Positions 1 to 61,792 of a DNA stretch of 64,000 nucleotides are shown here, one piece after another (position 1 is the first letter of the stretch; each line of letters starts with the position of its first letter). This stretch comes from Tachypleus tridentatus (taxonomy: Eukaryota; Arthropoda; Merostomata; Xiphosura; Limulidae). The translations under genes and the position numbers were made by a program. The DNA is taken from positions 67,819,558-67,883,557 of the forward strand of contig NC_134825.1 of assembly GCF_004210375.1 (NCBI RefSeq). The letters are read 5' to 3'. The notes beneath the pieces are model-generated. The model was not told where the DNA came from and ran no database searches. It worked only from the letters and a program-made list of their open reading frames with translations.

Positions 1-16
1 AATATTGACTCGGAAG

Positions 17-3000
17 ATGTACAGTTTTGGAAGACTTCCATTGTCCGACGTGTCCAACAACACTGTCTCCAGTTATAATGTCAGTGACGTGGATGATTAT
101 AACAGCTATCTGCGAGACCTTTTAAGAAAGATGTTAGAAGAGTACGAGAAACGAAGAGAATTGAACGGTTCTGAGAACGGTAGGCAGTTCATATTTTGGA
201 TTTACTGTATTCTAAATTTCATTTTATTTATACTTCGTACAGTCAATATTATTTGAACATAAACTGTAGTGTTTCTGTAAACCTCTCTTTCTATATACAT
301 ATAAATACACAATATAAAATCTCCCTCTGGGTGTGAGATAAGCTTACAAACTTCTAAAAGCAAAACCCGAGGTTACACCTCCGTCGAAATGGACACATAA
401 TCCACTGCGCAGCTTTGGGCAAGAAACATAAGAACACATATACATATAACGACAGTATTAGTTGGTTTGTATTGGAAGGGCTCGAAAGTAGTTAATTTCT
501 TTTAAATCCCATACGAAATGGAGGAACCAAACATCTATATACATTTAACAATGTTAAGCATCTAAAACGTTCAAAATGAATTAAATCGTAACTAATAAAA
601 AATAAAACCAGATTATTTTCACGTTTATAATGTTTTAACAAACTTTTAACCCTATCTGAAGACATGTAATCAAATCAACTAAAAATCTGAACAAAGTTTA
701 ATGTGAAAATAATTTCCTTTCCCTTGGGACAACTTAATATTTTGTCTTGACCATATGACAATGTTTCTTACATTGGATCTGTCTTTACTTTATTATAGCT
801 CTTTAATTTTGTTTCAATACTATTCTGTCTTGACCTTATGACCTCGATTCTTTTAGATTGACGTTCTTTGAAACATTTTAGGCACTGTGGCACTGCAATT
901 ATATATATAGATTAAAACTAATGAGGTTAATTTAACACAGGTTTACATAAAAAACACTGGGTGCACAAATCCCATATTTGGTGGTCGAAACCTTGTATAT
1001 ATATTAAAAGTAAAGTGTGCTAGAAACTTGTGGATGCCTCGCATCGGCTGTTTCCACTACAGGAATGGAACCCCAAATGTTATCGTTAAAAACCCTTTGT
1101 TTCATCACTGTATCATAGAATACATATTTTGCAATTTTTTTCCTGATGTCCACAGAAAGATAGAGGAGTGTTATTAACAAGCACGAGAACGTACAGTTTT
1201 TATTATGAAGACTTGAGAATCACAAAACGACTTGAATTAGTCCAAGCAAAGGACCCGGTAACAGTTTGTTCATATGCAATTCTCCTTGCTAATCGACTTC
1301 CGGTTTTATTCGTGGAAGTCAAATAGAGAAAAGTCGACCCTCCTTTATGGAATGACTTTAAAAGGGGAAGTTGAAAAACTTCAAGATATTTGAAAAATTA
1401 AATATATGTTAAAGAAATTGGATTTGTTATGTATACACACATATATAAATATAAGATAATACATAGAAATCCAGGTATGCATAAAGATTTTCCTTTATAA
1501 ATGGAAATTTGACGTTCGTAGATATCTTTAAGTGTTTTGAAACTCAACAAAAACGCCTCTTGAATGCAACCTGATCCACCATTTGTGCTTTAATCGTATG
1601 TTCGTCTTCCTGCCCTCTTCTCCCACCCAAACACGACAACAGTGACAAGTTAATATACTAAGTTGCTTGAAAATCCAATCAAACGAATGTTCATTATTGG
1701 ATGAATATGTTGATTTGTTTGGACGAAGAAACTGGTGATGAATATTTACCTCGTAGTTTTTATTAGATAAAAGCTGTTTTATAAACTACTTCAAATCTAC
1801 ATAAGGAGATAATGTTTATTGACTCACCCATAAAATATGCCGAGTCATACAACCTTACTTCTAAGTTACAATTTATAACACAAAATATAAAATTATGAAT
1901 TTATATTTGATCTGATATGACATCGTTGATAATGAGTAAAATATCTTTGCACCAAGTATAAAGAAGTATGATCTTTTTCTCATATACAGTTCATGAAAAT
2001 ATAAATTGTCCACATGTGAATAAGGAAGGGATGTACGAAAATGTAATACCTATCTACCAAATTATATACATATAAACATTCATGTAGCAAGAGCTCTGTT
2101 TCTCACATAAAGTAAAACAAAACCCATACAATTAGTAATTTTATCTTACTGTTATTACGAAAGTTGTGTTTAAGACATCAGATGCAGCAATTCTTATCAC
2201 TTTATTTTTGCTTTGTACAGGTGAAGATGGATCCTCGGCTCTAAAAGTAGAGAGCGTGGATTTCCTTCCACGAGATAATGCTCTAAAACACAACACCCAA
2301 ATGTACGAACTCGTAGAGGGTCCTAAGCCTGTTCTCATACTTCGGCGTGGCTTGTCGTTTACTGTTACCATTCTGTTCAATAGAGACTACGATCCAAAGA
2401 AACATACGCTTAAACTGGAAATGTCGTGTGGTGAGTCAGAATAACAGTACCTGCTACACGTTTAAAAACGTATTTATTAATCCTAACGTCTTAAAGACAT
2501 GTTGAATAAGTTTTGATTTTAAAAAGGATATAATAACCAACAAACATTTAGTTTTTATAATATTCAACTTTGATGACAGTGATTATGGGTTTGTCGATTA
2601 AGAGTTTTACGAGATCTATCTTACGATATAAAATATTCTGGAAAAATGTATTATTTTATTCTTAAGGTGTGATAAGTGCACAAAAACATACTTGTCACGT
2701 GATTACACTAATTGAAGACTTTTTTCTATACATTTTATATTTAGGTTCGAACCCTCAAATCAGTAAAGGCACCTTAGTTGTAATACCCATAACCAACAAC
2801 GATTCCTATAAAGAAGATAAAACAAAGTGGGATGTGCGACTACAAAGTCATGATGGTTCTAACATAACTCTCCAAGTACACGTGCCCTCTTCCGTGGGAG
2901 TTGGAATTTGGAAGATGAAAGTTACTTCACAATTAAAGTCAAAAGATGACGAACCAGTCTCTTCTTCAGAAACGTATGAATGCAAGGAGAATATTTACGT

Positions 3001-6000
3001 TCTCTTTAATCCATGGAACAAAGGTGAGTTTAAGAGTAAAAATATCCATAACTAAAACTTATGTTTTACGAAGAGATTTTTTTCATTAAATAAAGGTGCT
3101 AAGAGTACTAACGAGATGTAATTTTGTTTTTGGTCGACAGATGACTCTGTCTACATGCAAGATGATAAAATGAGAAAAGAATACGTTTTGAATGACGTTG
3201 GAAAGATTTATGTAGGTTCGTTTAACTACCCACAAGGAAGACAGTGGATTTTTGGGCAGGTAATAAATGTTTAATAACTTGAATAAAACTGACATTTCTC
3301 TTCACTTTAATAGCGTCTGAAAAATAAACTATTGAAAAATATTGATGTTTATGTTTCATTTCGGCTTCTAAACAGTTACACAGCACAATTCTATCAATTC
3401 TACTTGAGTCAATAAGAAGAGTATATTTTGTATTTCAGTTTAAAGACTCGGTCCTTCCGGCTTGCATGTTTTTGTTGGAACGTTCTCGTCTCGATTACAG
3501 TTCCAGGACTAACCCAGTCAAAGTAGCTCGTGCTGTGTCGGCCATGGTAAGATTTCTTTGAAAAATCGTGATACGAGTATTACCTAATATTACCTTAATT
3601 TAATACATTTACTTTTGTCTCTTATCAAAATTGTGATGCAAGTTTTATCCACTTGTTTGTGTCAGGAAATCATTAAAAGTATTGTCTAAATATAATAGTA
3701 TAATAACTAATTGTTTTCACGAGTTTCAGCGCGTTCAAAACTATATTTAATCCAAGTTAATATTTCAAGATTCACTATACACTTCACATGTACTAAGCAG
3801 TAAATGTAATAAATACATAATTAGAAATCATTAAAAACCTTTAACTTTTTCTGATTAAAGGTGAACAGCCTTAACGACAACGGTGTGATAATAGGTAGAT
3901 GGCATGAGCCTTATGATGAAGGTGTCGCCCCCTGGAAATGGACTGGAAGCGCTGCCATTCTAGAAAAGTTTATGAAAAACGGAGGAGATCCAGTGAAATA
4001 TGGACAATGCTGGGTATTTGCTGGTGTATGCAATACTGGTAGGTTTCGCTTCTTTCTGCCTATATTATGTGATAACTAACTTTTATTAGCTGGATTTAAT
4101 AAGATGTGGATTGATGATTTGTTTTAATATCATACATTTGTCATAACGAAATTAAAAAGGAAAAATCAATAATCTTAAGATATTAATATCAGTGAAAGAA
4201 ATGATGAGCAATCAAAGACATTTGCGTGACAACAAATATAACAATTTAATCTGTTAATCACAAGCAGACATAACAGGTTTTTTATTAACATGTACATACA
4301 ACAAACTAATCTAATGTTGCGTATATGCCTTTATATGTCATGTTCATAGTTTCTTAAAGCATTTATTAAACATAAAGTTGATGACAATTTTTATACAACT
4401 ATATTACAAAAGGAGTTAACCATTAAAGTTATTAAGTGTTTTAGAAGTTATTTAAAGGTAACTATTTATAAGATGATACAGTTGTTTCATTCATGTTAAC
4501 ATTCACACAAAATGATTATTAACATTTCACTATCTTAACACCTCCTGTTCATACCACTAAATTCCGAAGAATCTCTTTCCACATCATAAAAGCGATAAAC
4601 AGAAGTAATATAGTGATTTCAATAACCAAGTTATTGTTTTAATATTTACTGTACATCACGAAAATGTACTTTCGAATATTTTGTCGGTTGCTAAAACATT
4701 TTATCAAAACTTTAATTTGATGTGTTGTGGTTACAGTTTGCCGAGCCTTGGGGCTCCCCTGTCGGCCAGTTTCAAACTTCGTATCAGCTCATGATGCAGA
4801 CGCTACACTAACCATTGACAAACTTTTTAACGAAAATGGAGATCAGATGTCTGGAGGAACAAATGATTCAATATGGTATGTAAGGTTTTATGTTACTTTA
4901 ATGTGATAATATTGTTTCAAATAGTTGTATATTAACGTCCTGTTCAGATAAGATTTAATTACTAGCCGTTTTAGTACAGTTTTATAAAGAGTTTCTGTAT
5001 TTGTTTTTGTTATATATACAGGGTGCACAGTCGCTGTGCAGTTTTTTAATCATAGTTTATTCAGTCACTTTCAAGACAGCAACTGCAAGCGGTGTTTAGA
5101 AACAAAATAAGAAGGATCCAGGGCTGTATTGATGCCAACGGGGGTCACTTTCAACATTGTTTATAATTGTCATTCAAATTTACCCCCTGTATTCTATATT
5201 GAAACTTGTCTGTTAATAAATATATAAGTGCACAGTAACTTTCCAAACACACTGTATATACGATATTTGAATAACTTTTGAAAATGTTTTTAAACTGTTA
5301 AAATTAGGGGAAAATAGCTCATTATAGCTGGTTTTTTCTTTTATCTTAATGACAAGAACATTCTCTAACGATCGATCACAAAACATGTAAAGTATGTGTG
5401 ACTTGGATTTGTCATTGAGTTTTGAACTGAATGAAATCAATGTGTTAAACATTTTTAAGTATTTTATATAAAGAAATCTTTCCTCTGTGATTAGTTTAAC
5501 AACACGAAACTCGTTCACTTTATTCAGATAACCTCTGAATAAGAAACAGAGATGTATTAACTAACTCGACAACTCGTGTTTCAGGAACTTCCATGTATGG
5601 AATGAGTGTTGGATGGCGAGATCTGACCTTCCTGCAGGATACGGAGGATGGCAAATAGTTGACGCCACCCCACAGGAAACCAGCGAAGGTATTGTGCAAC
5701 TCATAAAAATTATAGTTTCTATGTAAATATTTGAGAATTTATTTACGTACGTGTGAATAATACGAAAACTGTGGTTTTGTATGATGACTTGCAGTTTGGA
5801 TCTTGCAATTTAATATTAAACTCAGTTAAAGCAAGTTTCATAGTCTTAGAATCAAGAAATTTTAAAGCAATATCAAAAATTACTCTTTACTTTAAAGTTC
5901 TGGGAATATAATTAGATATATGTTTTGATATTTTCACTCAGGTATCTATCAGTTAGGACCAGCATCTCAACTAGCTGTGAAAAGAGGAGAAGTTGGATAC

Positions 6001-9000
6001 AGATACGACGTCCCTTTCGTCTTCGCTGAAGTCAATGCAGACATCGTGTACTGGCAGAAAGACCGAAAAGCGGAAACTGGGTGGAAAAAAAATGAAAACA
6101 AACACTAGCCAGTACGTAATTTTAAGTGTTACATGTTGTTTCTGAATGTACACCGTATTCACAGATATAAACACGCTACACAAATAACAGAGGACAAGGC
6201 ACTTGTAGTGGCTGATACTCTGGTTGGCTTCTTTTATTTCGTTCCGTAGTAAAAACTCAGGAACGTGTATACCTGAATACAAGTTTCTGCGACCTCACAG
6301 TTCAGCCACCTTGTATAGATAGTGCCGTTTAGGTTGAAAATTCCCGTTCCTAAAATCTTATGCATGTTTTTGAGCACAATACATTTCAGTTAAAAATACC
6401 GCTTTGTTATATCTATATAAATCACACTTCTTATTTATAAGCTGGTCTTTGCTTGCATAATAAAAATAGGCCCGAGAAGACAAACTTTTCTTATAATAGG
6501 TTATTCCTCAAAGATAATTAATCCAATTGTTAATAAATGTAATTAAAAGCTATTTCAATTTGCTATTTCGTCTAGCTGCAAGTATTACTTGAAAGATATA
6601 TATATTTTTAGTTGACGTAAACATAAAACGTTAAGTGAATTACTAACAAGTAACTGACTGGCTTTATTTCATTTCCGTTCCATGTTAGATTTAACTCCAC
6701 AACAACAACTTGCTTAATTTGAGAATTAGCTTGTTTGAAAGGCACAATACGAGTGTGATAAACTGTTGTTTTTTTAAACTTATAGTGTGGGCCGTCTTAT
6801 ACTAACAAAGAAGGTTGGAGTTGATGATGATTATGGAAACAGAGATGCTGAGGATATCACTTACGAGTATAAAAACAAAGAAGGTAAGTAACCAGTATAT
6901 GTTTATAAAAATAAACCGACGTTTTGAACACTTGTGTATTGGAAAGTTTGTTTATTTTGTTTCTAAGTGGAAAGCTACACAATGAGTTTGAAAAATAAAA
7001 TTGCACCAGAGAATCTTGTTGCCTGATAAAACTGGTTTGTGTCCTGCAGGAACCGAGGAAGAGAGAATGTCTGTACTGAACGCCACAAACAACGATATTG
7101 TGAGACACAGATTCGACCGACCTGTTGAAAAGAAGACGTTTCATTCGAGCTATTGGAGAGTAAGAAAGTGATGATAGGACGGCCATTCGATGTAACAATA
7201 AAGATTAAAAATCTGAGCAGCAAACCCAGAACAGTGTCAGCCATATTGTCAGCCAGCAGCGTTTACTACACTGGAATTACAGCTAAAATGTTGAAACGGA
7301 AGAGTGATAAATTTATCCTTCAACCTAAGCAAGGTACACTTATGTTACCTAGTTTCACCTTTCTTGTATCCGTATGATTTGTACTGATTAGAAGATAGAC
7401 CTCATGAGCTGTTTATAGAATAATCTAATTACCATATGTAAGGTAATTGATAAACAGGACAGGTGTGGGTGTTGACGAAGTAAATAGAGTTCTGATAAAA
7501 CTGTAATTGCGTAGTTCAGTACGGTAACGTAGAAGTCTAATACAACTTTATTTAAAATGATAAGCACTGTTGTACTAGTTCAACATAACTGTTCTTAAAT
7601 TAATTAACACCATTGTTTCTGATAGAATGTTTTCTATCATAGCAACAAATTGGTTCTAATATATATATGGATATATTTAAAGTTAAATTTCATATTTCCC
7701 AGAAGTAATGTTCAGGAATTTTCTATCTTTATATAAGTAATGAAAAATGATGATGTAACTACAGATATGTATTCACAATATTTATTATTAAAAACAATGA
7801 ATTACATAGAATTAACTTGTGATCTCGTTTTGTTACATGGAAAAAGTGAAGCATAAATGTGTACAATTAATTTAACGTTCGGTATACATTGAGAAATAGG
7901 TTTAGGGAAAATTGTAATAACTGTCTGTAGGGATTATAGAGATTCGTTTTACATAGAAAGTTATATTAAATATGTGTTATTTACAGAGGCACTTCTTTCA
8001 ATTAAATTGACCTCAAGCGAATATCTCGACAAACTGGTGGATTACGCCATGATAAAAATCTACGCTTTGGCCACAGTGATGGAAACGCAGCAATCCTGGT
8101 CTGGTGAGGACGATTTTGTACTGGACAAACCGAAGTTGAGTCTTGAGGTAAGGTCAAATAAAGTTATTATTTTTAAAATTATAACGGTAGACACTACATT
8201 ATGTTCCATATCTAGAATCCATGATAAATCCTCGATAATGAAATGTACTGTTATTATTATTTAACTTAGGTCCACGGAACTCCAGAGGTTGGAAGACCAT
8301 TTGAATTAGTTATCACTTTTCAAAACCCACTGAAACGTATTCTGGAAGATTGTGTCTTCAATATTGAAGGACCGGGACTTGCAGGACCGTACCATTCAAA
8401 GTTCAGGTGTGGAAAATGTGCTTTCTCGTGTCTTAAAATAAAGTAACTCTCCGTATTTGAGTAAATTTAATTTCACACAAAATTTCTTTAAACCTATCCG
8501 TATTTACGAACAAACAAATACCATTCGTCTTTACTTTATAATAACAATTCTAAAATAAACGAATTCAGCGACAATGTGTGAGAAGTTGATAAAAAACGGT
8601 TAAAAGACTAAGAGATACTTCTGAACTTAACAGTTGTTTCTCATATAGTAATTTTAACTTTGTTTATAATATTGTTTAAGGAGAATTTCATTTAACCAAA
8701 TTTAAATGGTGAGATAATCATACACAAAAAAACTCAATTAAGATCTTCTTAAGTCGAACAACTGTAGTTCAGAGACTAGTTATGATTAAGTTTGTTGATT
8801 AACATCGAATTTGAATAATGTTACCTGTTTAACTACGTTTAAAACAATACAAAGTTTACACATCGATGGCTATATTATGTTTTTTTTCAAAACATAATTT
8901 TGTACCATTACAGGGATATCAAACCAGGTGAAACTATAACTCATAACGAAAAACTCGTTCCTCAGCAGCCTGGTTCCAAGACAATATTCGTCACTTTCAG

Positions 9001-9085
9001 CTCTCGGCAGCTCATCCAGCTCATGGGATCAAAACATATTGAGGTGATCCCAAAATCCGATCCAAGCCACAACGAGACTTTATAA
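17..9085 (+). CDS. TGM: Hemocyte-type transglutaminase, copy A (14 exons)
   Basis: Calcium-dependent protein-glutamine gamma-glutamyltransferase, which forms isopeptide cross-links; in horseshoe crabs the hemocyte enzyme cross-links clot-associated proteins. Exons read from GT-AG junctions and reading phase: 17-179, 2221-2430, 2745-3023, 3141-3259, 3439-3546, 3861-4038, 4737-4875, 5585-5688, 5942-6111, 6786-6883, 7050-7333, 7987-8147, 8270-8406, 8914-9085, about 773 codons. The ATG at 17 is chosen because copy B starts at the same codon. Residues 1-60 are a charged extension without a signal peptide, then an N-terminal beta-sandwich, the core (about 180-510) and two C-terminal barrels (about 545-773). 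The triad is visible: Cys343 in [10 protein letters not shown] (codon 4008-4010), His402 in NFHVW (5592-5594) and Asp425 in QIVDAT (5661-5663). Two frame breaks relative to copy B: eight A at 6085-6092 in exon 9 (B has seven), giving an early stop, and four A at 7128-7131 in exon 11 (B has five). The remaining exons read open. Confidence 0.93.
376..1986 (+). other. Intron 1 segment present only in copy A
   Basis: Intron 1 of copies A and B aligns from the donor to about 375 (aaaacccgaggtta) and again from about 1987 (gttcatgaaaatataaatt). The roughly 1.6 kb between has no counterpart in copy B. It is AT-rich and noncoding; I see no terminal repeats and no transposase. It may be an insertion in A or a deletion in B. 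Confidence 0.75.
4250..4572 (+). other. Intron 6 segment present only in copy A
   Basis: Intron 6 is 698 bp in A and 395 bp in B. The two align up to about 4250 (caacaaatataacaatt) and again from about 4572 (atctctttccacatcat). The roughly 320 bp between is AT-rich, with no repeat family recognised. Confidence 0.65.
5018..5255 (+). mobile_element. Tc1/mariner-type DNA transposon remnant in intron 7 of copy A
   Basis: An element of about 240 bp sits in TATA-rich flanks. The left end (acagggtgcacagtcgctgt) and the reverse complement of the right end (acagtgtgtttggaaagtta) resemble inverted ends of an invertebrate Tc1/mariner-like family. Inside, on the plus strand, is the tail of a transposase reading [17 protein letters not shown] followed by a stop near 5166. 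It is therefore a deletion derivative keeping both ends and the C-terminal codons. Copy B lacks it at the same intron position. Confidence 0.7.
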
Positions 9086-11113
9086 GTTCTGTTTAAAGTT
9101 ACTGTTTGAGATGCAGTGTTGTAAACTTTAGGTTATTGAATCGTGTTGTTTAATTAATATACTCGTATTTCTGTGTAACTTATGCCTTTCAGGGATCAAC
9201 TTTTGTTTTTTTTTTAAGCATGTTAATTTTCTGTTTTTGCTTTCTCTTTTCAATACGATATGTTATAGTATTTCTTGGAATTTTTAAATATATTTTCGAA
9301 GTCTTGAAGATTGATGCTATATTTATACCACTTGGGTTCAACGAGTGAGCAATTTTTCACTTAAAATATATTTTCCATGTCTCCAGTTTAAATCACGTAT
9401 TTGTTTCTGTTAAAATACTTAATATCTGTTGTGTATTTTTCAAATTAAGATCGTATTTATTTATTTATTTATATATTTATTTATTTATATCTCGTGCAGT
9501 AGATGACAAAATGCTCATAGTGTATTAAACTTTTTAAAAAGTATCAATGAAATATAGTATTTGTTTGAATTAATTCGTGAAGGCAGGTTTGCCATTTAGT
9601 ACACTTTCAAAGTTAGTTCCTTATTAGAACCAGAAAGAAAATCGAAAAACATTTTAATTAAAATATCCAAGTCATGGTGATGATTTCATGTCTGGAAAGT
9701 GAGTTGCGCTGGAGTAAACAAATAACGATTTCAATTTGAAGATCTAGAATTAACAAATTTCACGTTTTGAAAATCAATGACATTTTTAAAGTTTGTTTTG
9801 TCATACCAAAGTCACCTCGTATTATTTGTTGTGTCAACCAACTAGAATCGAACCTATGATTTTAGCGTTTTATTTCTGAAGATATACCACTGTTTCACTT
9901 GATATATAACCCACATGTGAATACTTAAATAATCTGTTATCAAGGTCATACCAAAAGAGTTATTATGTTACTGTTTCTATCACTGTGTATATTCTTGTTA
10001 ATTAATTTGTAAAAAATCCAACTCAATAAACAGAAACAGAAAATGTTTCATTTCTTCCAGCATACATAGTTTCACAAAGTAACACCAACTAATCCACATG
10101 TCTAACTCACAGAGAAAACTAAATATTGCTTGTTAAATTTCCTCCGTCGTATATAACACCGTCTAACAGACTGACTCCTAAGTGATTAACCAGCCCATCC
10201 ACTAATTCACTGTGGTATTTTTATGAAATACTAGTTTTCCAAAAGTCTTTCGAAAATTGGATATGTGACGTAAGATTTAACACTGTGGAATTTCTGAATA
10301 ATTACGTCATACCGAACCTTTTATCTAGAAAAAAAAAAGACTAAATTAAATCACTCAAAAAGAAAACCTATAACTCTGGGCCTTCCAAGACTTTGAAATC
10401 GTTAGAACAATTTTAACACACAAATGGAACAAAGTGTGTTAAAGTTCCATATTTATTTATGTATTCTAATGTACAATTATGAAGATGTAATATTTGTTAA
10501 TGGAATTATCAGTACTAAATCGTTAATTAAACGAAAAAAGAAACAAGATCTTTTTACTCTTCCGTGGTTTGTGGAACTTGGACGAAACGATCTCTGTCCT
10601 TTGTTTTCATTTTGTGTCTTATCACGTGGCGAGTTCTCTATGGTAAATGGTTGAACGAATCCTTTTATGTCTGTAGTTCTCTTTATAATCTGGACGTTGT
10701 CTCAACAGGTTCTCATGCATGTTTAATTAGTTTGCCGAAAGCTAAAGTTTTGCTAGAGATGTAACAACTATCTGATCTCCTGTCGACGTCTTTCGAAAGA
10801 TTGTCAGAACACTTAATATTTCTTCTGGTTTCTTGTCTGTTACATTCAAGGTCGACTCTTCTCATAACACTGTGCACCAATCTTTGTAGTTATCTGAAGT
10901 CCATTCTCTAGCGGTGTAATTGTTATATAATGTATATTTGTTTCCTTGTCGTAGGCTATAAAACAATTTGAAACTACCCTAACTTCAAAACCGCTTTTCT
11001 AAATGAGTAATTTTCAAATATGCACTCATTTTCGGTATGTATTATCCACACAGTATGAAGTGTAGAGAATATATTCTGAAGACGGCTGGAACGGGTGTAA
11101 GAATTGTTATTAT
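9086..11113 (+). other. 3' flank of transglutaminase A, no gene seen
   Basis: Noncoding DNA shared with 38049-40042. It holds a TTTA microsatellite at about 9458-9487 that is longer than its counterpart in B, and a degenerate tRNA-like SINE trace near 9834-9925. Short open frames at 10424-10764 occur in both copies but match no family I know. A possible polyadenylation signal AATAAA lies near 10024. Confidence 0.6.
9458..9487. repeat. TTTA microsatellite
   Basis: Tandem TTTA units interrupted once by TATATA. The equivalent in copy B (about 39656-39674) is shorter, so the locus has changed length since duplication. Confidence 0.85.
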
Positions 11114-11217
11114 AATAAAGTACAGAATAATGTTTCGACCTTCTTAGATCATATTCAGGTCTTTGTTTTAGCATCAATATGACCTAAGAAGGTCGAAACG
11201 TTATTCTGTACTTTATT
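11114..11217. repeat. Hairpin with 42-bp arms, hammerhead-like motif (copy A)
   Basis: Arms 11114-11155 and 11176-11217 are inverted repeats matching at 40 of 42 positions around a 20-base loop. On the minus strand the arm reads CTGAATA, a short helix (gatc / ggtc, loop taagaa), then GAAAC. This resembles the CUGANGA-helix II-GAAA core of hammerhead ribozymes with one core mismatch. Such motifs are known in Penelope-like retroelements. No matching reverse transcriptase is adjacent, so this is a remnant at best. Confidence 0.6.
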
Positions 11218-11920
11218 TTAATTAAAATACTGATACCCATACCAGCCGAATAAATTTTTATTTCGTGTGGGTTTCTCGTCATCAGGAAGCGCAGAGAAGT
11301 TATCCACAGGAACTGTAACTTTCTTCTTGTTGTAATTTTATGTCCAATTGCAGTTCGAATTAATCGATAATAATTCTTTCTCTCTAAATGAAATTTTCTC
11401 TGTTTATTACTAAATCCAATACTGAACAGTTGTCGCTGTAGAACCAGTATTGATCAACATGTTTCAAGGATTTTCATCAACGAATCCATTATCTCATGTG
11501 CTGGTTTTTATAAATAATTAACAGTTTATATATTTTAGAGTAAATGGTGTTTTGTTAGTAAGATCTCGCCCATAAGCTCAGCTAATTCCTATTGTCCGAT
11601 GTCTCAATTACTCACTCTTACCGGTTCCTTCATCTGACTGAAGTCGTCACTATGGTGATGTCTCACTCTTTAAATACCATCTGTTTATTCCTTACACTCC
11701 TATAGTGATGACTGTGTTCAAACATATATAACAGTTCTCTTTTACTGACATCCTTTGGAAGGAATTTTAAATCCCTATCAACTTACGCCAACAGTTATTG
11801 GTAATATGTCCTTTCACGATACAGTCGAAATAACTACTGTCTTGTAGTTTCCATCTTCCGTTCTAAATAATTAATTATTTAATTATTCGTTTCACTTCTT
11901 CTGGAATACCGTCAGAGGGA

Positions 11921-32820: not shown

Positions 32821-32994
32821 CAGTGGAACCCCTCTGAAACAGCCACCTTTGGGACTGAGACTAACTGGCCTCATTAGAGGGGTTCTACTGTACATAATTA
32901 GGGATTATGTAAACAAAAAAAGGGACTGTGATTGAATGACCGCTTTCAAGGGGTGACTGAATCTGAGGGGTGGCTGCTTAGAGGGGTTCCACTG
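32821..32994. mobile_element. MITE with cagtggaacccctct ends
   Basis: A 174-bp nonautonomous element. The left end cagtggaacccctct is mirrored at the right end (agaggggttccactg), with TA on both sides (32819-32820 and 32995-32996). Ends and TA target fit a pogo/Tigger-type element. Confidence 0.82.
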
Positions 32995-32996
32995 TA

Positions 32997-34913: not shown

Positions 34914-35413
34914 NNNNNNNNNNNNNNNNNNNNNNNNNNNNNNNNNNNNNNNNNNNNNNNNNNNNNNNNNNNNNNNNNNNNNNNNNNNNNNNNNNNNNNN
35001 NNNNNNNNNNNNNNNNNNNNNNNNNNNNNNNNNNNNNNNNNNNNNNNNNNNNNNNNNNNNNNNNNNNNNNNNNNNNNNNNNNNNNNNNNNNNNNNNNNNN
35101 NNNNNNNNNNNNNNNNNNNNNNNNNNNNNNNNNNNNNNNNNNNNNNNNNNNNNNNNNNNNNNNNNNNNNNNNNNNNNNNNNNNNNNNNNNNNNNNNNNNN
35201 NNNNNNNNNNNNNNNNNNNNNNNNNNNNNNNNNNNNNNNNNNNNNNNNNNNNNNNNNNNNNNNNNNNNNNNNNNNNNNNNNNNNNNNNNNNNNNNNNNNN
35301 NNNNNNNNNNNNNNNNNNNNNNNNNNNNNNNNNNNNNNNNNNNNNNNNNNNNNNNNNNNNNNNNNNNNNNNNNNNNNNNNNNNNNNNNNNNNNNNNNNNN
35401 NNNNNNNNNNNNN
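34914..35413. other. Scaffold gap, exactly 500 N
   Basis: A run of 500 N, a round number typical of a fixed-size scaffold join. Distance and orientation of everything to its right relative to the left depend on scaffolding. Confidence 0.98.
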
Positions 35414-35864
35414 TTTGATTTATAAACCTAGTCTTTGTATCTTAAGTAACTGTTTTAATCGGTATTATCTGAGAACTAACCACCACCTATGACAGAACAC
35501 ATCCTACACCCTCCTACTTCACCAACTCAATTCGTGTTATACAAATTTGTGTCCACGAAGAAGAAACAAACTCTTTAGAATCTACAGAAATTATTAAGGC
35601 AAATGATTTTCATTAAACCATGATAATGGCCCTAGCAACATTAACCATATTTAGCAAGGTTTATTCACCTTTCACTGACTTAACCAGAATCCACCCTTTT
35701 CTGTAGTCTGTTATCTGCTGATATAATTTCTACCACATTGAATGTTTGAGTCTTTTATCTTTATAACTTATAAGCTTTGTATTGGTATAGTTCTTTGGGA
35801 GAGGGTATTAAGCAGTTGAATTTTCTCGACTTGCAACTCGGTCAATTTTTTTTTTTTTTTAGCT

Positions 35865-36655
35865 ATGTCCCGATATAAGCTGCGCAATCTCATCCGTTAC
35901 GTTTGACGGGATCTCCATAATTTTAGACAGATAAACCTGATCATTGTTCAGCTTTCATCCGAATTGATTCACCATAACTCTTGATGAAATCTAACAATCC
36001 CTCGAACAATCAACAACATTAAACTGCATGGTGTTCAATGAATCCGCTCCCGATTAACTGCCAATTAATTCATGAAAATCATCACACAATCCAAACCGAC
36101 AGAAGAACTTATTATCAGCCATGTCTTCTTTAACTACTTCTTTCATTTCAAAACCGAAAAACATTACAGAGGAAATCGTAAACACGCTTCACCAACTTTG
36201 GCAATCTAATAATCAAAATTACTTCAAGCTATAAACCCAACTGCCACCAGGCGCCACTCCACCCTCTATCGTCCAATTCGTCCGAACAAGCAGAAGTACT
36301 TTTACAACTGTTCAAGTTTCCCAAATCAACATCTTGGAAACCAAAGATTCAGCCATATAAACAGACATACCATTTATGCCACCAAGTTCACGTTGACTAC
36401 GCCTCACATCAGTAGAAAAAAGAAGCAAACATTTACCACCACTGTTGACCACCTTCGACAAATAATCTTCCAGAAATATTCTATAACTCCGATTTCACAC
36501 GCCTATATATTCCGACCCTACAATTTTTGACGGATTCTCCCCTTTCGACCCAACTAACTACTATGATTACAACAGCGACTACGAATGTAACCGTTCCTTT
36601 AAAAGCCTGCAACGTTCTGATGGTAACTATCTTCTGAGAAACTAATGTAATGTTT
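35865..36655 (+). pseudogene. Decayed ORF-like repeat R, copy 1 (family unknown)
   Basis: One plus-strand frame stays protein-like for about 260 codons with roughly a dozen in-frame stops. Legible segments are CAISSVTFDGISIILD near 35885 and SSLTTSFISKPKNITEEIV near 36125. Further on are FHTPIYSDPTIFDGFSPFDP near 36495 and FKSLQRSDGNYLL near 36600. A second copy lies at 57186-57682. The segment abuts the edge of duplicated block B. I do not recognise the protein. A dead retroelement or other integrated element is possible. Confidence 0.5.
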
Positions 36656-37018
36656 CACACAATCAGCTTTGGTCCTCTCCCAGTTTTAATTTTCCTTCTA
36701 CATCCCTGTATATAATAATTATAAAACAGTTTTGAAGCAGAATAAAGAGTGTGGATGATAGTTTAACAGAACTTGTGAAAACCTTTATCAAGATATCTTG
36801 TAAGGATGTTCCACATGAAGTGTGGATTCATTAATCCACTCAGCAGTTCAAAATTACCGTAATATATTAGGATATCTGAATTAGACTAAAGCAAGGCATA
36901 TGATCATCTTTGAAGGAAGTTTGACAGTTGACGATAGAACTTACATCCATTAAAATCACCGATAAAGATCTAAAAAACACCATACAGAAATTCAGGATAA
37001 TCACTTCACGCAAAGTGA

Positions 37019-37256
37019 GCCCCGGCATGGCCAGGTGGTTAAGGCACTCGACTCGTAATTCGAGGGTTGCGGGTTCGAATCCCCATCACGCCAAACATGC
37101 TCGCCCTTTCAGCCGTGAGATGTTATAAAGTAATGGTGAATCCCACTATTTGTTGGTAAAAGAGTAACCCAAGAGTTGGCGGTGGGTGATGATTACTAGC
37201 TGCTTTCCATCTAGTCTTACACTGCAATATTAGGGTTATCTGTGCTAGCTGAACTC
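37019..37256 (+). mobile_element. tRNA-derived SINE (copy B)
   Basis: Starts gccccggcatggccaggtgg, with the B box gggttcgaatcccc near 37070, then the SINE body. Same insertion as in copies A and C. Confidence 0.88.
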
Positions 37257-37944
37257 CCTCTGACGGTATTCCAGAAGAAGTGAAACGAATAATTAAATAA
37301 TTAATTATTTAGAACGGAAGATGGAAACTACAAGACAGTAGTTATTTCGACTGTATCGTGAAAGGACATATTACCAATAACTGTTGGAATAAGTTGATAG
37401 GGATTTAAAATTCCTTCCAAAGGATGTCAGTAAAAGAGAACTGTTATATATGTTTGAACACAGTCATCACTATAGGAGTGTAAGGTATTTAAAGAGTGAG
37501 ACATCGCCATAGTGACGACTTTAGTCAGATGAAGGAACCGGTAAGAGTGAGTAATTCAGACATCGGACAATAGGAATTAGCTGAGCTTATGGGCGAGATT
37601 TTACTAACAAAACTCCATTTACTCTAAAATATATAAACTGTTAATTATTTATAAAAACCAGCACACGAGATAATGGATTCGTTGATGAAAATCCTTGAAA
37701 CATGTTGATCAATACTGGTTCTACAGCGACAACTGTTCAGTATTGGATTTAGTAATAAACAGCGAAAATTTCATTTAGAGAGAAAGAATTATTATCGAAT
37801 AATTCGAACTGCAAGTGGACATAAAATTACAACAAGAAGAATGTTACAGTTCCTGTGGATAACTTCTCTGCGCTTCCTGATAACGAGAAACCCACACGAA
37901 ATAAAAATTTATTCGGCTGGTATGGGTATCAGTATTTTAATTAA

Positions 37945-38048
37945 AATAAAGTACAGAATAACCTTTCGACCTTCTTAGGTCATATTGAAACTAAAACAAA
38001 GACCTGAATATGATCTAAGAAGGTCGAAACATTATTCTGTACTTTATT
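37945..38048. repeat. Hairpin with 42-bp arms, hammerhead-like motif (copy B)
   Basis: Counterpart of the hairpin in copy A. Arms are 37945-37986 and 38007-38048. The plus strand reads CTGAATA at 38004-38010, then a short helix and GAAAC ending at 38030. Confidence 0.6.
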
Positions 38049-40042
38049 ATAACACCCGTACCAGCCGTCTTCAGAATATATTCTCTACACTTCATACTGT
38101 GTGGATAATACATACCGAGAATGAGTGCATATTTGAAAATTACTTATTTAGAAAAGCGGTTTTGAAGTTAGGGTAGTTTCAAATTGTTTTATAGCCTACG
38201 ACAAGGAAACAAATATACATTATATAACAATTACACCGCTAGAGAATGGACTTCAGATAACTACAAAGATTGGTGCACAGTGTTATGAGAAGAGTCGACC
38301 TTGAATGTAACAGACAAGAAACCAGAAGAAATATTAAGTGTTCTGACAATCTTTCGAAAGACGTCGACAGGAGACCAGATAATTGTTACATCTCTAGCAA
38401 AACTTTAGCTTTCGGCAAACTAATTAAACATGCATGAGAACCTGTTGAGACAACGTCCAGATTATAAAGAGAACTACAGACATAAAAGGATTCGTTCAAC
38501 CATTTACCATAGAGAACTCGCCACGTGATAAGACACAAAATGAAAACAAAGGACAGAGATCGTTTCGTCCAAGTTCCACAAACCACGGAAGAGTAAAAAG
38601 ATCTTGTTTCTTTTTTCGTTTAATTAACGATTTAGTACTGATAATTCCATTAACAAATATTACATCTTCATAATTGTACATTAGAATACATAAATAAATA
38701 TGGAACTTTAACACACTTTGTTCCATTTGTGTGTTAAAATTGTTCTAACGATTTCAAAGTCTTGGAAGGCCCAGAGTTATAGGTTTTCTTTTTGAGTGAT
38801 TTAATTTTTTTTTTTCTAGATAAAAGGTTCGGTATGACGTAATTATTCAGAAATTCCACAGTGTTTAAATCTTACGTCACATATCCAATTTTCGAAAGAC
38901 TTTTGGAAAACTAGTATTTCATAAAAATACCACAGTGAATTAGTGGATGGGCTGGATAATCACTTAGGAGTCAGTCTGTTAGACGGTGTTATATACGACG
39001 GAGGAAATTTAACAAGCAATATTTAGTTTTCTCTGTGAGTTAGACATGTGGATTAGTTGGTGTTACTTTGTGAAACTATGTATGCTGGAAGAAATGAAAT
39101 ATTTTCTGTTTCTTGGATTTTTTACAAATTAATTAACAAGAATATACACAGTGATAGAAACAGTAACATAATAACTCTTTTGGTATGACCTTGATAACAG
39201 TTTCTTTAAGTATTCACATGTGGGTTAACACCTAATATATCAAGTGAAACAGTGGTATATCTTCAGAAATAAAACGCTAAAATCATAGGTTCGATTCTCG
39301 TTGGTTGACACAACAGATAATACGAGGTGCCTTTGGTATGACAAAACACACTTTAAAAATGTCATTGATTTTGAAATTGACGTGAAATTTGTTAATTCTA
39401 GATCTTCAAATTGAAATCGTTATTTGTTTACTCCAGCGCAACTCACTTTCCAGACATGAAATCATCACCATGACTTGGATATTTTAATTAAAATGTTTTA
39501 CGATTTTCTTTGTGGTTCTAATAAGGAACTAACTTTGAAAGTGTACTAAATGGCAAACCTGCCTTCACGAATTAATTCAAACAAATACTATATTTCATTG
39601 ATATTTTTAAAAAGTTTAATACACTATGAGCATTTTGTCATTTACTGCACGAGATATAAATAAATAAATAAATACGATCTTAATTTGAAAAATACACAAC
39701 AGATACTAAGTATTTTAACAGAAACAAATACGTGATTTAAACTGGAGACATGGAAAATATATTTTAAGTGAAAAATTGCTCACTCGTTGAACCCAAGTGG
39801 TATAAATATAGCATCAATCTTCAAGACTTCGAAAATATATTTAAAACTTCCCAAGAAATACTATAACATATCGTATTGAAATGAGAAAGCAAAAACAGAA
39901 AATTAACATGCTTAAAAAAAAACAAAAGTTGATCCCTGAAAGGCATAAGTTACACAGAAATACGAGTATATTAATTAAACAACACGATTCAATAACCTAA
40001 AGTTTACAACACTGCATCTCAAACAGTAACTTTAAACAGAAC
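38049..40042 (-). other. 3' flank of transglutaminase B, no gene seen
   Basis: Collinear with 9086-11113 in reverse complement. The same short open frames (38386-38726) are preserved simply because the duplication is young. A degenerate tRNA-like SINE trace lies near 39225-39315. Confidence 0.6.
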
Positions 40043-43000
40043 TTATAAAGTCTCGTTGTAAGTTGGATCGGATTTTGGGATCACCTCAATATGTTTTGAT
40101 CCCATGAGCTGGATGAGCTGCCGAGAGCTGAAAGTGACGAATATTGTCTTGGAACCAGGCTGCTGAGGAACGAGTTTTTCGTTATGAGTTATAGTTTCAC
40201 CTGGTTTGATATCCCTGTAATGGTACAAAATTATGTTATGAAAAAAAACCATAATATAGCCATCGATGTGTAAACTTTGTATTGTTTTAAACGTAGTTAA
40301 ACAGGTAACATTATTCAGATTCGATATTAATCTACAAACTTAATTATAACTAGTATCTGAACAACAGTTGTTCGACTTAAGAAGATCTTAATTGAGTTTT
40401 TTTGTGTATGATTATCTCACCATTTAAATGTTGGTTAAATGAAATTCTCCTTAAACAATATTATAAACAAAGTTAAAATTACTATATGAGAAACAACTGT
40501 TAAGTTCAGAAGTATCTCTTAGTCTTTCAACCGTTTTTTTATCAACTTCTCACACATTGTCGCTGAATTCGTTTATTTTAGAATTGTTATTATAAAGTAA
40601 AGACGCATGGTATTTGTTTGTTCGTAAATACGGATAGGTTTAAAGAAATTTTTGTGTGAAATTAAATTTACTCAAATACGGAGAGTTACTTTGTTTTAAG
40701 ACACGAGAAAGCACATTTTCCACACCTGAACTTTGAATGGTACGGTCCTGCAAGTCCCGGTCCTTCAATATTGAAGACACAATCTTCCAGAATACGTTTC
40801 AATGGGTTTTGAAAAGTGATAACTAATTCAAATGGTCTTCCAACCTCTGGAGTTCCGTGGACCTAAGTTAAATAATAATAACAGTACATTTCATTATCGA
40901 GGATTTATCATGGATTCTAGATATTGAAAATAATGTAGTGTCTACCTTTAGAATTACAACAATATGATCTTTATTTGACCTTACCTTAAGACTCAACTTC
41001 GGTTTGTCCAGTACAAAATCGTCCTCACCAGACCAGGATTGCTGCGTTTCCATCACTGTGGCCAAAGCGTAGATTTTTATCATGGCGTAATCCACCAGTT
41101 TGTCGAGATATTCGCTTGAGGTCAATTTAATTGAAAGAAGTTCCTCTGTAAATAACATATATTTAATATAACTTTCTATGTAAAACGAATCTCTATAATC
41201 CCTACAGACAGTTATTACAATTTTCCCTAAACCTATTTTTCAATGCGTACCGAACGTTAAATTCATTTGTACACGTTTATGCTACACTTTTTTCTTGTAA
41301 CAACATTAGATCACAAGTTAATTCTATGTAATTCATTGTTTTTAATAATAAATATTGTGAATACATATCTGTAGTTACATCATCATTTTTCATTACTTAT
41401 ATAAAGATAGAAAATTCCTGAACATTACTCTGGGAAATATCAAATTTAACTTTAAATATATCCATATATATATTAGAACCAATTTGTTGCTATGATAGAA
41501 AACATTCTATTAGAAACAATGGTGTTAATTAATTTAAGAACAGTTATGTTGAACTAGTACAACAGTGTTTATCATTTTAAATAAAGTTGTATTAGACTTC
41601 TACGTTACCGTACTGAACTAAGTAATTACAGTATTATCAGAACTCTATTTACTTCGTCAACACCCACACCTGTCCTGTTTATCAATTACCTTACATATGG
41701 TAATTAGATTATTCCATAAACAGCTCATGAGGTCTATCTTCTAATCAGTACAAATCATACGGATACAAGAAAGGTGAAACTAGGTAACATAAGTGTACCT
41801 TGCTTAGGTTGAAGGATAAATTTATCACTCTTCCGTTTCAACATTTTAGCTGTAATTCCAGTGTAGTAAACGCTGCTGGCTGACAATATGACTGACACTG
41901 TTCTGGGTTTGCTGCTCAGATTTTTAATCTTTATTGTTACATCGAATGGCCGTCCTATCATCACTTTCTTACTCTCCAATAGCTTGAATGAAACGTCTTC
42001 TTTTTCAACAGGTCGGTCGAATCTGTGTCTCACAATATCGTTGTTTGTGGCGTTCAGTACAGACATTCTCTCTTCCTCGGTTCCTGCAGGACACAAACCA
42101 GTTTTATCAGGTAACAAGATTCTCTGGTGCAATTTTATTTTCAAACTCATTGTGTAGCTTTCCACTTAGAAACAAAATAAACAAACTCTCCAATACACAA
42201 GTGTTCAAAACGTCGGTTTATTTTTATAAACATATACTGGTTACTTACCTTCTTTGTTTTTTATACTCGTAAGTGATATCCTCAGCATCCCTGTTTCCAT
42301 AATCATCATCAACTCCAACCTTCTTTGTTAGTATAAGACGGCCCACACTATAAGTTTAAAAAAACAACAGTTTATCACACTCGTATTGCGACTTTGAAAG
42401 AAGCTAATTCTCAAATTAAGCAAGTTGTTGTTGTGGAGTTAAACCTAACATGGAACGGAAATGAAGTAAAGCCAGTCAGTTACTTGTTAGTAATTCACTT
42501 AACATTGAATATTTACGTCTACTAAAAAATATTTATCTTTTAACCAATATTTGCAGCCAGACGTAATATCAAAATGATAGCTTTTGATTGCATCCATTAA
42601 TAATTGGATTAATTATTTTTGAGAAATAATGTATTATAAGAAAAGTTTATTTTCTAGGGCCTATTTTTATTATGTACGCTTTGATGAAGGACAAGCTTCG
42701 GAGAAAGAAGTGTGATTTATATAGATATAACAAAGCGGTATTTTTAACTCAAATATATTGTGCTCAAAAACATGCACAAGATTTCAGGAACTGGAATTTT
42801 CAACCTAAACGGCACTTTGTATAAAAGGTGGCTGAACTGTGAGGTCGCAGACACTTGTATTCAGGTATACCCCTCCCTGAGTTTTTACTTCGAAATAAAG
42901 GAAAAGAAGCCAACCAGAATATCAGTCACTACAAATGGCGAATACGGTGTACATTCAGAAACAACATGTAACACTTAAAATTACGTACTGGCTAGTGTTT

Positions 43001-46000
43001 GTTTTCATTTTTTTCCACCCAGTTTCCTCTTTTCGGTCTTTCTGCCAGTAAACGATGTCTGCATTGACTTCAGCGAAGACAAAAGGGACGTCGTATCTGT
43101 ATCCAACTTCTCCTCTTTTCACAGCTAGTTGAGATGCTGGTCCTAACTGATAGATACCTGAGAGAAAATATCAAAACATATCTCTAATTATATTCCCAGA
43201 ACTTTAAAGTAAAGAGTAATTTTTAATATCCTTTAAAATTCTTTGAATTCTAAGACCATGAAACTTGCTTTAACTGAGTTTAATATTAAATTGCAAGATC
43301 CAAACTGCAAGTCATCATACAAAACCACAGTTTTTCTCAGGTTCATACTTTGTAAATAAGTAAATATTTTTTTGAAATGAATGTGTGATGATTATTATGG
43401 TTTACTTAATACAGCCATAAATGCATTAATAAATGATTGTAAAACTTTTGTATTTGCGTGTTTTGATAATTCAAATTATTCACACGTACGTAAATACATT
43501 CTCAAATATTTACATAGAAACTATAATTTTTGGAGTTAGACAATACCTTCGCTGGTTTCCTGTGGGGTGGCGTCAACTATTTGCCATCCCCCGTATCCTG
43601 CAGGAAGGTCAGATCTCGCCATCCAACACTCATTCCATACATGGAAGTTCCTGAAACACGAGTTGTCGAGTTAGTTAATAAATCTCTGTTTCTTATTCAG
43701 AGGTTATCTGAATAAAGTGAACGAGTTTCGTGTTGTAAAACTAATCACAGAGGAAAGATTTCTTTATATAAAATACTTAAAAATGTTTAACACATTGATT
43801 TCATTCCGTTCAAAACTCAGTGACAAAGTCACACATACTTTACACGTTTTGTGATCGATCGTTAGAGGATGTTCTTGTCATAAAGATAAAAAAAAAACCT
43901 TCTGTTATAATGAGCTACTTTCCCTTAACTTTTCACAGTTTAGAATCGTATTTTCAAAAGTTATATATCATATACTACATATATATAAGAAAAACAAATA
44001 CAGAAACTCTTTATAAAACTGTATTAAAACGGCTAGTAATTAAATCTTATCTGAACATGCCGTTAATATGCAATAATTTGGAACAATATTATCACATTAA
44101 AGTAACATAAAACCTTAAGTACCATATTGAATCGTTTGTTCCTCCAGACATCTGATCTCCGTTTTCGTTAAATAGTTTGTCAATGGTTAGTGTGGCGTCT
44201 GCATCATGAGCTGACACGAAGTTTGAAACTGGCCGACAGGGGAGCCCCAAGGCTCGGCAAACTATAAACATAAAACATCAAATTAAAGTTTTAATAAAAT
44301 GTTTTAGCAACCGACAAAATATTCATAAGTACATTTTCGTGATATACCGTAAATATTAAAACAATATATTGTGTTATTAAAATCACTATATTACTTCTGT
44401 TTATCGCTTTTATGATGTGGAAAGAGATTTTTAAAATGTTAACAGAATGAATTGTTATATTTGTTGTCACACAAATGACTTTGATTGCTCATCATTTCTT
44501 TCACTAATATAAATATCTTAAGATTATTGATTTTTCGTTTTTATTTCGTTATGACAAATGTATGATATTAAAACAAATCATCAATCCACATCTTATTAAA
44601 TCCAGCTAATAAAAGTTAGTTATCACATAATATAGGCAGAAAGAAGCGAAACCTACCAGTATTGCATACACCAGCAAATACCCAGCATTGTCCATATTTC
44701 ACTGGATCTCCTCCGTTTTTCATAAACTTTTCTAGAATGGCAGCACTTCCAGTCCATTTCCAGGGGGGCGACACCTTCATCATAAGGCTCATGCCATCTA
44801 CCTATTATCACACCGTTGTCGTTAAGGCTGTTCACCTTTAATCAGAAAAAGTTAAATGTTTTTAATGATTTCTGATTTTGCATTTATTACATTTACTGCT
44901 AAGTACATGTAAAGTGTATAGTGAATCTTGAAATATTATTATACTATTATATTTAGACAATACTTTTAATGATTTCCTGACACAAACAAGTGGATAAAAC
45001 TTGCATCACAATTTTGATAAGAGACAAAAGTAAATGTATTAAATTAAGGTAATATTAGGTAATACTCGTATCACGATTTTTCAAAGAAATCTTACCATGG
45101 CCGACACAGCGCGAGCTACTTTGACTGGGTTAGTCCTGGAACTGTAATCGAGACGAGAACGTTCCAACAAAAACATGCAAGCCGGAAGGACCGAGTCTTT
45201 AAACTGAAATACAAAATATACTCTTCTTATTGACTCAAGTAGAATTGATAGAATTGTGCTGTGTAACTGTTTAAAAAGCCGAAATGAAACATAAACATCA
45301 ATATTTTTCAAAAGTTTATTTTTCAGACGCTATTAAAGTGAAGAGAAATGTCAGTTTTATTTAAGTTATTAAACATTTATTACCTGCCCAAAAATCCACT
45401 GTCTTCCTTGTGGGTAGTTAAACGAACCTACATAAATCTTTCCAACGTCATTCAAAACGTATTCTTTTCTCATTTTGTCATCTTGCATGTAGACAGAGTC
45501 ATCTGTCGACCAAAAACAAAATTACATCTCGTTAGTACTCTTAGCACCTTTATTTAATGAAAAAATCTCTTCGTAAAACATAAGTTTTAGTGATGGATAT
45601 TTTTACTCTTAAACTCACCTTTGCTCCATGGATTAAAGAGAACGTAAATATTCTCCTTGCATTCATACGTTTCTGAAGAAGAGACTGGTTCGTCATCTTT
45701 TGACTTTAATTGTGAAGTAACTTTCATCTTCCAAATTCCAACTCCCACGGAAGAGGGCACGTGTACTTGGAGAGTTATGTTAGAACCATCGTGACTTTGT
45801 AGCCGCAAATCCCACTTTGTTTTATCTTCTTTATAGGAATCGTTGTTGGTTATGGGTATTACAACTAAGGTGCCTTTACTGACTTGAGGGTTCGAACCTA
45901 AATATAAAATGTATAGAAAAAAAGTCTTCAATTAGTGTAATCACGTGACAAGTATGTTTTTGTGCACTTATCATACCTTAAGAATAAAATAATACATTTT

Positions 46001-46985
46001 TCCAGAATATTTTATATCGTAAGATAGATCTCGTAAAACTCTTAATCGACAAACCCATAATCACTGTCATCAAAGTTGAATATTATAAAAACTAAATGTT
46101 TGTTGGTTATTATATCCTTTTTAAAATCAAAACTTATTAAACATGTCTTTAAGACGTTAGGGTTAATAAATACGTTTGTAAACGTGTCGCAGGTTTCAGT
46201 TATTCTAACTCACCACACGACATTTCCAGTTTAAGCGTATGTTTCTTTGGATCGTAGTCTCTATTGAACAGAATGGTAACAGTAAACGACAAGCCACGCC
46301 GAAGTATGAGAACAGGCTTAGGACCCTCTACGAGTTCGTACATTTGGGTGTTGTGTTTTAGAGCATTATCTCGTGGAAGGAAATCCACGCTCTCTACTTT
46401 TAGAGCCGAGGATCCATCTTCACCTGTACAAAGCAAAAATAAAGTGATAAGAATTGCTGCATCTGATGTCTTAAACACAATTTTCGTAATAACACTAAGA
46501 TAAAATTACTAATTGTATGGGTTTTGTTTTACTTTATGTGAGAAACAGAGCTCTTGCTACATAAATATTTATATTTATATAATTTCATAGACTCGTATTT
46601 ATATGAGACAATTTATATTTTCATGAACGGTAGCCCCAGGTTTTATTATTAGATATTTTTAAGATTACCACACACCCAGAGGGAGACTTTATATTGTTTA
46701 CTTATACTGAGAGAGAGAGGTTTACAGAAACACTACAGTTTATGTTCAGGTAATATTAAATGTCCGAAGTAGAAATAAAATGAAATTTAGAATACAATAA
46801 ATCCAAAATATGAACTGCCTACCGTTCTCAGAACCGTTCAATTCTCTTCTTTTCTCGTACTCTTCTAACATCTTTCTTAAAAGGTCTCGCAGATAGCTGT
46901 TATAATCATCCACGTCACTGACATTATAACTGGAGACAGTGTTGTTGGACACGTCGGACAATGGAAGTCTTCCAAAACTGTACAT
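40043..46985 (-). CDS. TGM: Hemocyte-type transglutaminase, copy B (14 exons)
   Basis: Near-identical paralog of the gene at 17-9085, in inverted orientation. Exons in transcription order: 46985-46823, 46423-46214, 45897-45619, 45502-45384, 45203-45096, 44835-44657, 44261-44123, 43650-43547, 43157-42989, 42347-42249, 42083-41799, 41145-40985, 40862-40726, 40214-40043. Exon lengths equal those of copy A except for single-base differences in exons 6, 9, 10 and 11. Only about ten amino-acid differences were noticed, for example WDLRL for WDVRL in exon 3, FKLLE for FELLE in exon 11 and SDPTYNETL for SDPSHNETL at the C terminus. Its own frame breaks are six G on the plus strand at 44763-44768 (copy A has five C) in exon 6, upstream of the catalytic Cys, and six T at 42257-42262 (copy A has five A) in exon 10. 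Exons 9 and 11 are in frame here. Intron 1 is 399 bp against about 2.04 kb in A. It is either an active gene with consensus errors or a very young pseudogene; I favour the first. Confidence 0.92.
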
Positions 46986-46998
46986 CTTCCGAGTTAAG

Positions 46999-61781: not shown

Positions 61782-61792
61782 TGAGTTGTTGT

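Follow-up and report, generated by a model that had tools for sequence, protein, structure and literature searches.

Horseshoe crabs are known to carry tandem gene clusters, among them the carcinolectin-3/CEBP-PI cluster with its two interspersed genes (PMC7210998). A second described system is an artefact of assembly: false duplications are marked by gaps between the duplicated pairs, half read depth, discordant reads, and one-copy k-mers (Ko et al. 2022, PMC9516828), and heterozygous overlaps that have been retained are not handled by scaffolders such as SALSA with Hi-C data (purge_dups, PMC7203741), as stated in the excerpts available from these papers. The locus analyzed here, a 64,000-nucleotide stretch of the Tachypleus tridentatus genome (hereafter the window; C1:67819558–67883557, where C1 is the chromosome carrying it), resembled both. 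It contains an AMPK beta gene between two transglutaminase units, arms A and B, which face each other in the assembled sequence and had been described, from the sequence alone, as a large inverted duplication. As in the carcinolectin-3/CEBP-PI cluster, tandem immune or clotting-type copies were interleaved with a second gene, although the pair here was a transglutaminase with AMPK beta. As in the excerpts on false haplotypic duplications and heterozygous overlaps (PMC9516828, PMC7203741), near-identical copies stood on one scaffold with N gaps between them, an end-to-end overlap, and a possibly heterozygosity-like divergence. Unlike in such artefacts, however, at least some of the copies here are likely real, with three tandem genes in a gap-free stretch and a duplication junction found in two contigs. 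On a horseshoe crab transglutaminase cluster, the titles and abstract openings of the literature searched held nothing relevant, and the word "transglutaminase" did not occur in the main text of PMC7210998 or of another horseshoe crab genome paper.

The reported inverted duplication is likely to be the product of one misoriented contig and probably does not exist in the genome. For the locus as a whole, the best explanation is very likely that this contig was scaffolded backwards, giving an apparent inverted duplication, with a likely real direct tandem array beneath it and several copies that are probably unpurged haplotypes. An inverted pair around AMPK beta, if real, would suggest recurrent inversion; a face-value reading would instead record a scaffolding error and miscount the AMPK beta and transglutaminase genes.

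Orientation of the contig carrying arm B

Self-BLAST of the window matched positions 1–376 and 2045–12519 to 47001–36655 in inverted orientation, with piecewise identities of 91.5–95.5%. The same transglutaminase gene was present in A and B in opposite orientation, as had been claimed, in the assembled letters only. A third match (62728–64000 to 12638–11367) lay in the orientation of B and was the start of a further copy, C, whose 1.27 kb within the window matched A at 99.5% identity. The sequence-only reading had missed a 500-N gap (C1:67854471–67854970) that separates A and AMPK beta from B and C, so that the arms, said to converge on the intervening AMPK DNA, are not linked by continuous sequence. 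A second 500-N gap (C1:67927215–67927714) closes the contig carrying B and C, hereafter contig Y (C1:67854971–67927214; 72,244 bp), which is an island between the two gaps. The contig carrying A (the left contig) is bounded on its left by a third gap (C1:67713723–67714222), and there was no N in C1:67770001–67854470. The sequence read for gaps was 200 kb around the window; the left piece may hold more of them in C1:67720001–67770000. On this one scaffold, a gap thus lies between the members of the duplicated pair, as in false duplications.

Searches of the 2.17-Gb assembly (205 sequences) indicated that three markers along contig Y, namely the AMPK beta tail, Y-unique DNA, and the transglutaminases, were reversed together. 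The AMPK beta tail (window 29300–30700) was on the + strand at all three places outside Y, C1:67736627, 67848857 (the window), and 68471809, and on the − strand only in Y, at C1:67924056; its further matches were two fragments of less than 80 bp elsewhere (6/6 candidates scored). Y DNA at C1:67905000–67906500 was reversed relative to both of its other full-length matches, at 68490781 (99%) and 67755648 (93%), and the remaining matches were short repeats. The close transglutaminase copies found on C1 outside Y were all + (7/7): g1, g2, and A on the left contig, g1', g2', and A' in the 68.5-Mb region, and, at 68.56 Mb, a fourth copy that is truncated. Among the close C1 copies found, only B and C, both in Y, were −; one genome-wide transglutaminase search scored 69 of 165 candidates, and its exon list is a lower bound. 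In addition, ten kb of Y corresponded to 68.487–68.497 Mb in reverse with 0.32% substitutions. Independent support for the orientation of a real inverted duplication was not found, as the three Y markers were reversed and the close C1 copies were direct.

When contig Y was flipped, its marker order became the same as that of two other copies, and the spacing from the AMPK beta tail to the Y-unique DNA was 18,975 bp, compared with 19,021 and 18,972 bp in the two others. An inverted match was also found between the left contig's end and the far end of Y. Because three markers in Y are reversed and flipped Y keeps the marker order and overlaps the left contig's end, a misoriented contig is the probable source of the inverted geometry. 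Hi-C scaffolding can easily put short contigs in the wrong orientation. The 72-kb contig Y, with B and C, would have been scaffolded in the wrong orientation, and transglutaminase copies that likely run in the same direction would thereby seem to be opposed on the two sides of AMPK beta; flipped Y would then follow the left contig. The proposal that the inverted arms could promote inversion of the AMPK segment is accordingly not supported, since the opposite orientation rests wholly on Y, which lies between two gaps with three markers backwards.

Several observations weigh against a backward contig. The distance from the AMPK beta tail to the g1-type flank was 67.9 kb in Y but 55.4 and 38.8 kb elsewhere. 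The 7.4-kb overlap with the left contig was not identical, with 64 substitutions and 43 gaps (26 in homopolymers) in 7.3 kb, and is allelic-like at best; we do not take it as proof of adjacency, because such an end-to-end alignment is to be expected whenever two homologous contigs both break off. It is consistent with adjacency and not decisive. The other end of flipped Y had no overlap with the next contig among matches of >600 bp, or of >300 bp at 92%. Opposite-facing members are not unique to Y, as the more distant members of the family on C3 and C10 occupy either strand. Finally, further gaps could lie in C1:67720001–67770000 and in much of 68.455–68.55 Mb, stretches that were unread.

Alternatively, the inverted arrangement could be real, with a 72-kb block containing B, C, and the AMPK beta tail inverted in this animal and the breakpoints inside both gaps. 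Inverted repeats hinder assembly, the gaps could sit at the true edges of an inversion, and no sequence read here spans either gap; the more distant C3 cluster is also found on both strands. However, under this explanation both breakpoints would have to fall at scaffold gaps, and it has to accommodate the uniformly direct AMPK beta tails and close transglutaminase copies outside Y as well as the marker order that flipped Y shares with two other copies. We regard a real inversion as unlikely, and the flip is probably an error.

Transglutaminase genes and the divergence of A from B

The transglutaminase protein had all of the Transglut_N, core, and C domains of Pfam. Its nearest solved structure was factor XIII A, and the active-site Cys, His, and Asp were all present at the positions that we take, from the factor XIII residues, to be those of the triad. 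These three domains and the triad, together with a partial Limulus hemocyte transglutaminase-like protein of 87–89% identity, place it in the arthropod hemocyte transglutaminase/coagulation factor XIII A family. The Limulus protein was the closest named relative, and its identity fits a gene from an Asian horseshoe crab, as two other Limulus–T. tridentatus protein pairs compared showed 83 and 87% identity. Limulus hemocyte transglutaminase was 64% identical, and the T. tridentatus relatives were one hemocyte transglutaminase-like protein at 76% and the hemocyte transglutaminase entry at only 62%; from the latter value, the window gene is a separate paralog.

Spliced alignment gave 13 coding exons in A and B, in models without the first, upstream exon, where 14 exons per gene had been counted. 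The same 13 were found in g1 (C1:67783 kb, +) and g2 (67804 kb, +), and copy C was modelled at C1:67886–67890 kb (−) without coding exons 1–5. In the spliced models, the exon lengths of A and B were equal apart from single-base run differences, the introns differed by large indels, and the proteins differed at 10 sites, all of which agreed with the sequence-only reading. Frameshifts were needed in all five models. Because all nine of them were within homopolymer runs, they are likely consensus errors, and we do not favor reading these genes as pseudogenes. Two of the frameshifts recurred in two copies each, one in A and C and the other in g2 and B, and shared real indels may lie behind these.

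Divergence in the 3' flank was 0.64–0.88% among B, g1, and g1' (68.51 Mb) and 0.49–0.74% among A, C, and A' (68.55 Mb), compared with 1.27–1.55% between the two groups. The two-state informative sites numbered 33, of which 14 separated precisely these two groups and two linked A' to g1' in contradiction to them; the remaining 17 fell within the arrangement of the groups, partly in mutual conflict. The existence of two 3'-flank families, with more divergence between than within them, supports the earlier suggestion that A and B are real paralogs.

Between the coding sequences of A and B there were 16 synonymous and 10 non-synonymous differences (Ks 0.0355, Ka 0.0060), after alignment columns gapped in at least two of the four full copies had been dropped. 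The resulting Ka/Ks of 0.17 bears out the protein constraint that had been suggested. With 454 poorly aligned positions masked, exons showed 1.22% substitutions, introns 3.47%, and the 3' flank 1.43%. Because Ks (3.55%) agrees with the divergence of introns, selection on the protein explains the contrast between exons and introns, and exon-level gene conversion, which had been offered as the other explanation, is not needed and was rejected. The 3' flank (9083–12519 compared with 40045–36655) differed far less than the introns, and it may have had a different history or be a recombination tract.

It could also be argued that A and B are merely two alleles of one gene and that nothing at this locus is duplicated, since gaps lie between the copies and the 68.5-Mb copies look allelic to those of the left contig. 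However, g1 (of B's type), g2, and A stand in tandem in an 84-kb gap-free stretch, so that both sequence families occur in one continuous sequence. Moreover, the 3.5% divergence of A and B at introns and synonymous sites is well above 0.7–0.9%, and the tandem junction was found in two contigs. We therefore rejected this explanation as highly improbable.

Other transglutaminase copies were found by the same searches. The 5'-truncated fourth copy lies at C1:68559369–68561054, after A' at 68.55 Mb, and shows approximately 88–95% DNA identity to the others. A more distant cluster at C3:63.84–64.02 Mb was 51–72% identical to the query, with exons on the − strand at 63.84–63.89 Mb and on the + strand at 63.96–64.02 Mb; among the matches listed, two equal-scoring exons on opposite strands suggest another inverted pair there.

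Tandem array and haplotype copies

On the left contig, g1, g2, and A form a tandem gene cluster, all + at C1:67783–67829 kb within the gap-free stretch. The middle part of the window of approximately 24 kb with AMPK beta, formerly described as single-copy, is repeated as well. Its AMPK beta tail occurs at the four C1 places given above, and the region upstream of AMPK beta was matched at full or nearly full query length at three, C1:67722514, 67834757, and 68457690, all +, with the other 39 matches being short (67–81%). The AMPK beta copy at 67.72–67.74 Mb was offset by 112.2 kb from that of the window. This first segment copy (S1) starts at C1:67719846, 112,231 bp upstream of the second (S2), which lies in the window.

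The match between A and A' stops at C1:67832076 (window 12519). From C1:67832077 onward, the sequence equals that starting at C1:67719846, the start of S1 (155 bp read on the S1 side), and the AMPK beta tail and the upstream region are two further points with the same 112.2-kb offset. The point at which A and B part is thus, on the side of A, the junction of a 112-kb tandem duplication. This junction was base-identical in A and C, which lie in separate contigs; copy C adds approximately 119 bp of the AMPK beta segment and then jumps into an 8.5-kb block, R1. Because the junction recurs in two contigs, the 112-kb tandem duplication is likely real, and the sequence is likely organized as a direct tandem array with a 112-kb AMPK beta–transglutaminase unit. 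At least some of the array beneath the apparent inversion probably exists, and arrays of this kind are known.

Between the left contig and the 68.5-Mb copies, divergence was 0.93% at the g1 flank, 0.76% at the g2 flank, and 0.74% at the A flank, and the g1–g2 interval differed by 1.13% from the sequence at 68.552 Mb. The heterozygosity of the mangrove horseshoe crab is given as 0.8% in the excerpts available (PMC7210998), close to the 0.74–0.93% of the gene flanks, although this reference value is that of a related species and not of this animal. The first base of the left contig starts a match to C1:68449197, with 38 mismatches and 50 gap openings over approximately 5.6 kb in two BLAST pieces; by global alignment the same match showed 1.68% divergence, including three gaps of at least 20 bp. 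DNA to the left of 68449197 (68.448 Mb) had no second full-length copy: of 183 candidates, 40 were scored, and 39 of these were short matches (67–89%). Because a divergence of 0.7–0.9% resembles that of alleles, the homology starts at the first base of the left contig, and the DNA beyond it has no second copy, several of the copies are probably another haplotype left unpurged. The claim that the duplication is no haplotype artefact therefore stands for A and B, which are paralogs, and probably fails for parts of the region, where haplotigs may be present.

Conversely, the left contig and the 68.45–68.56-Mb copy could be true segmental paralogs 0.7 Mb apart, which would be compatible with flipped Y. 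The interval from AMPK beta to a g1-type gene occurs in three versions of differing length and gene content, more than the two alleles of one locus, and the 68.5-Mb array has one AMPK beta tail genome-wide against two on the left contig. However, the match of gene-flank divergence with the reported heterozygosity and the abrupt start of homology at the contig's first base, beside 68.448-Mb DNA without a second full-length copy, argue against paralogy, which we consider doubtful as an account of these copies. The three versions of the interval nevertheless make it likely that at least one duplication is real, and unpurged haplotypes remain our preferred reading of the rest. The region illustrates how unpurged haplotype contigs may become entangled with true tandem paralogs within one scaffold.

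Copy C consists of 8.3 kb derived from A and is flanked by two direct repeats of 8.5 kb, R1 and R2. R1 is repeated across copy C at C1:67890587–67899089 (R2) with 0.64% substitutions, and in our reading of the alignment the joins have very short shared letters, which would fit insertion by replication template switching. Short tandem repeats of 82–86% identity occur at window 54295–54692, within R1 near its low end. For g1' (68.51 Mb), no early exons were among the matches listed and its 3' part grouped with B, a structure that could have arisen if a C-type copy had crossed over unequally with a B-type one. The array itself probably grew by the blunt 112-kb tandem duplication. We tentatively suggest that AMPK beta and the clotting-type transglutaminases constitute a single, unstable tandem array that varies in copy number from one haplotype to another. 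It may have grown by the blunt 112-kb duplication, which took the kinase subunit with it, and then by template switching (copy C), and unequal crossing-over may have trimmed it, fusing the 5' end of a C-type copy to the 3' end of a B-type copy at 68.51 Mb. If the tandem array holds, the locus would be a cluster of clotting enzymes with variable copy number in which a subunit of a metabolic kinase is carried along.

Features of the window and neighboring repeats

The coordinates of the features are collected in the table below. The AMPK beta gene was assigned from AMPK1_CBM and AMPKBI matches in its joined pieces (Pfam); the former covered only 29 of 85 profile positions because later CBM exons lie outside the model.

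Table. Positions in the window of the genes, duplicated segments, and assembly features
Feature	Position	Strand	Remarks
Arm A, transglutaminase unit and 3' flank	1..12519	+	13 coding exons, 2241–9082; self-BLAST and spliced model
Arm A, position in left contig	1..12519	+	right end of the 112-kb unit
Tandem-duplication junction	12519..12520	.	A-type 3' flank joined blunt to start of second AMPK beta segment (alignment of A, C, A', g1, S1)
S2, second AMPK beta segment copy	12520..34913	+	cut by scaffold gap
AMPK beta gene	18664..30559	+	coding exons at approximately 18664, 25918, 28473, 29387, and 30500 onward; 18.8–25.9 kb outside the model
End of left contig	27560..34913	+	7.4-kb inverted match to far end of Y (C1:67927214–67919836), with last two AMPK beta exons
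Scaffold gap between arms	34914..35413	.	500 N; A and AMPK beta to the left, B and C to the right
Part of contig Y, probably placed in reverse	35414..64000	−	
3' flank of B's own	35414..36654	−	common to g1 and the 68.51- and 68.55-Mb copies; absent from A
Arm B, g1-type transglutaminase unit	36655..47001	−	13 coding exons, 46403–40046
R1	54216..62728	.	8.5-kb block, repeated beyond copy C
Start of copy C, 5'-truncated A-type transglutaminase adjoining R1	62728..64000	−	whole copy C1:67882285–67890588, without coding exons 1–5

Two dispersed repeats were found in the window. One of approximately 210 bp occurred at 11940–12157, 37018–37235, 47746–48020, 61851–62070, and other positions, and at no fewer than 32 places across chromosomes with 88–90% identity (best 40 of 6059 candidates scored). 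The other, of approximately 1.3 kb at about 13641–14948, occurred at 37 or more places on many chromosomes with 83–87% identity (37 of 7417 candidates scored).

Outside the window, the contig to the left of the left contig ends in a 65-bp satellite (C1:67713001–67713722) with 11 copies and 98% matches, which is also present at C1:75.959–75.967 Mb; a satellite is a natural break, and we gave it little weight. The contig following Y starts with a direct 5.7-kb repeat (C1:67927715–67933375 and 67934253–67939923) with 0.48% substitutions and 38 gaps, 25 of them in homopolymers, which is possibly another false duplication. Further along, C1:67944364–67963208 consists of direct repeats with a period of approximately 6.8 kb and approximately 97–99% identity.

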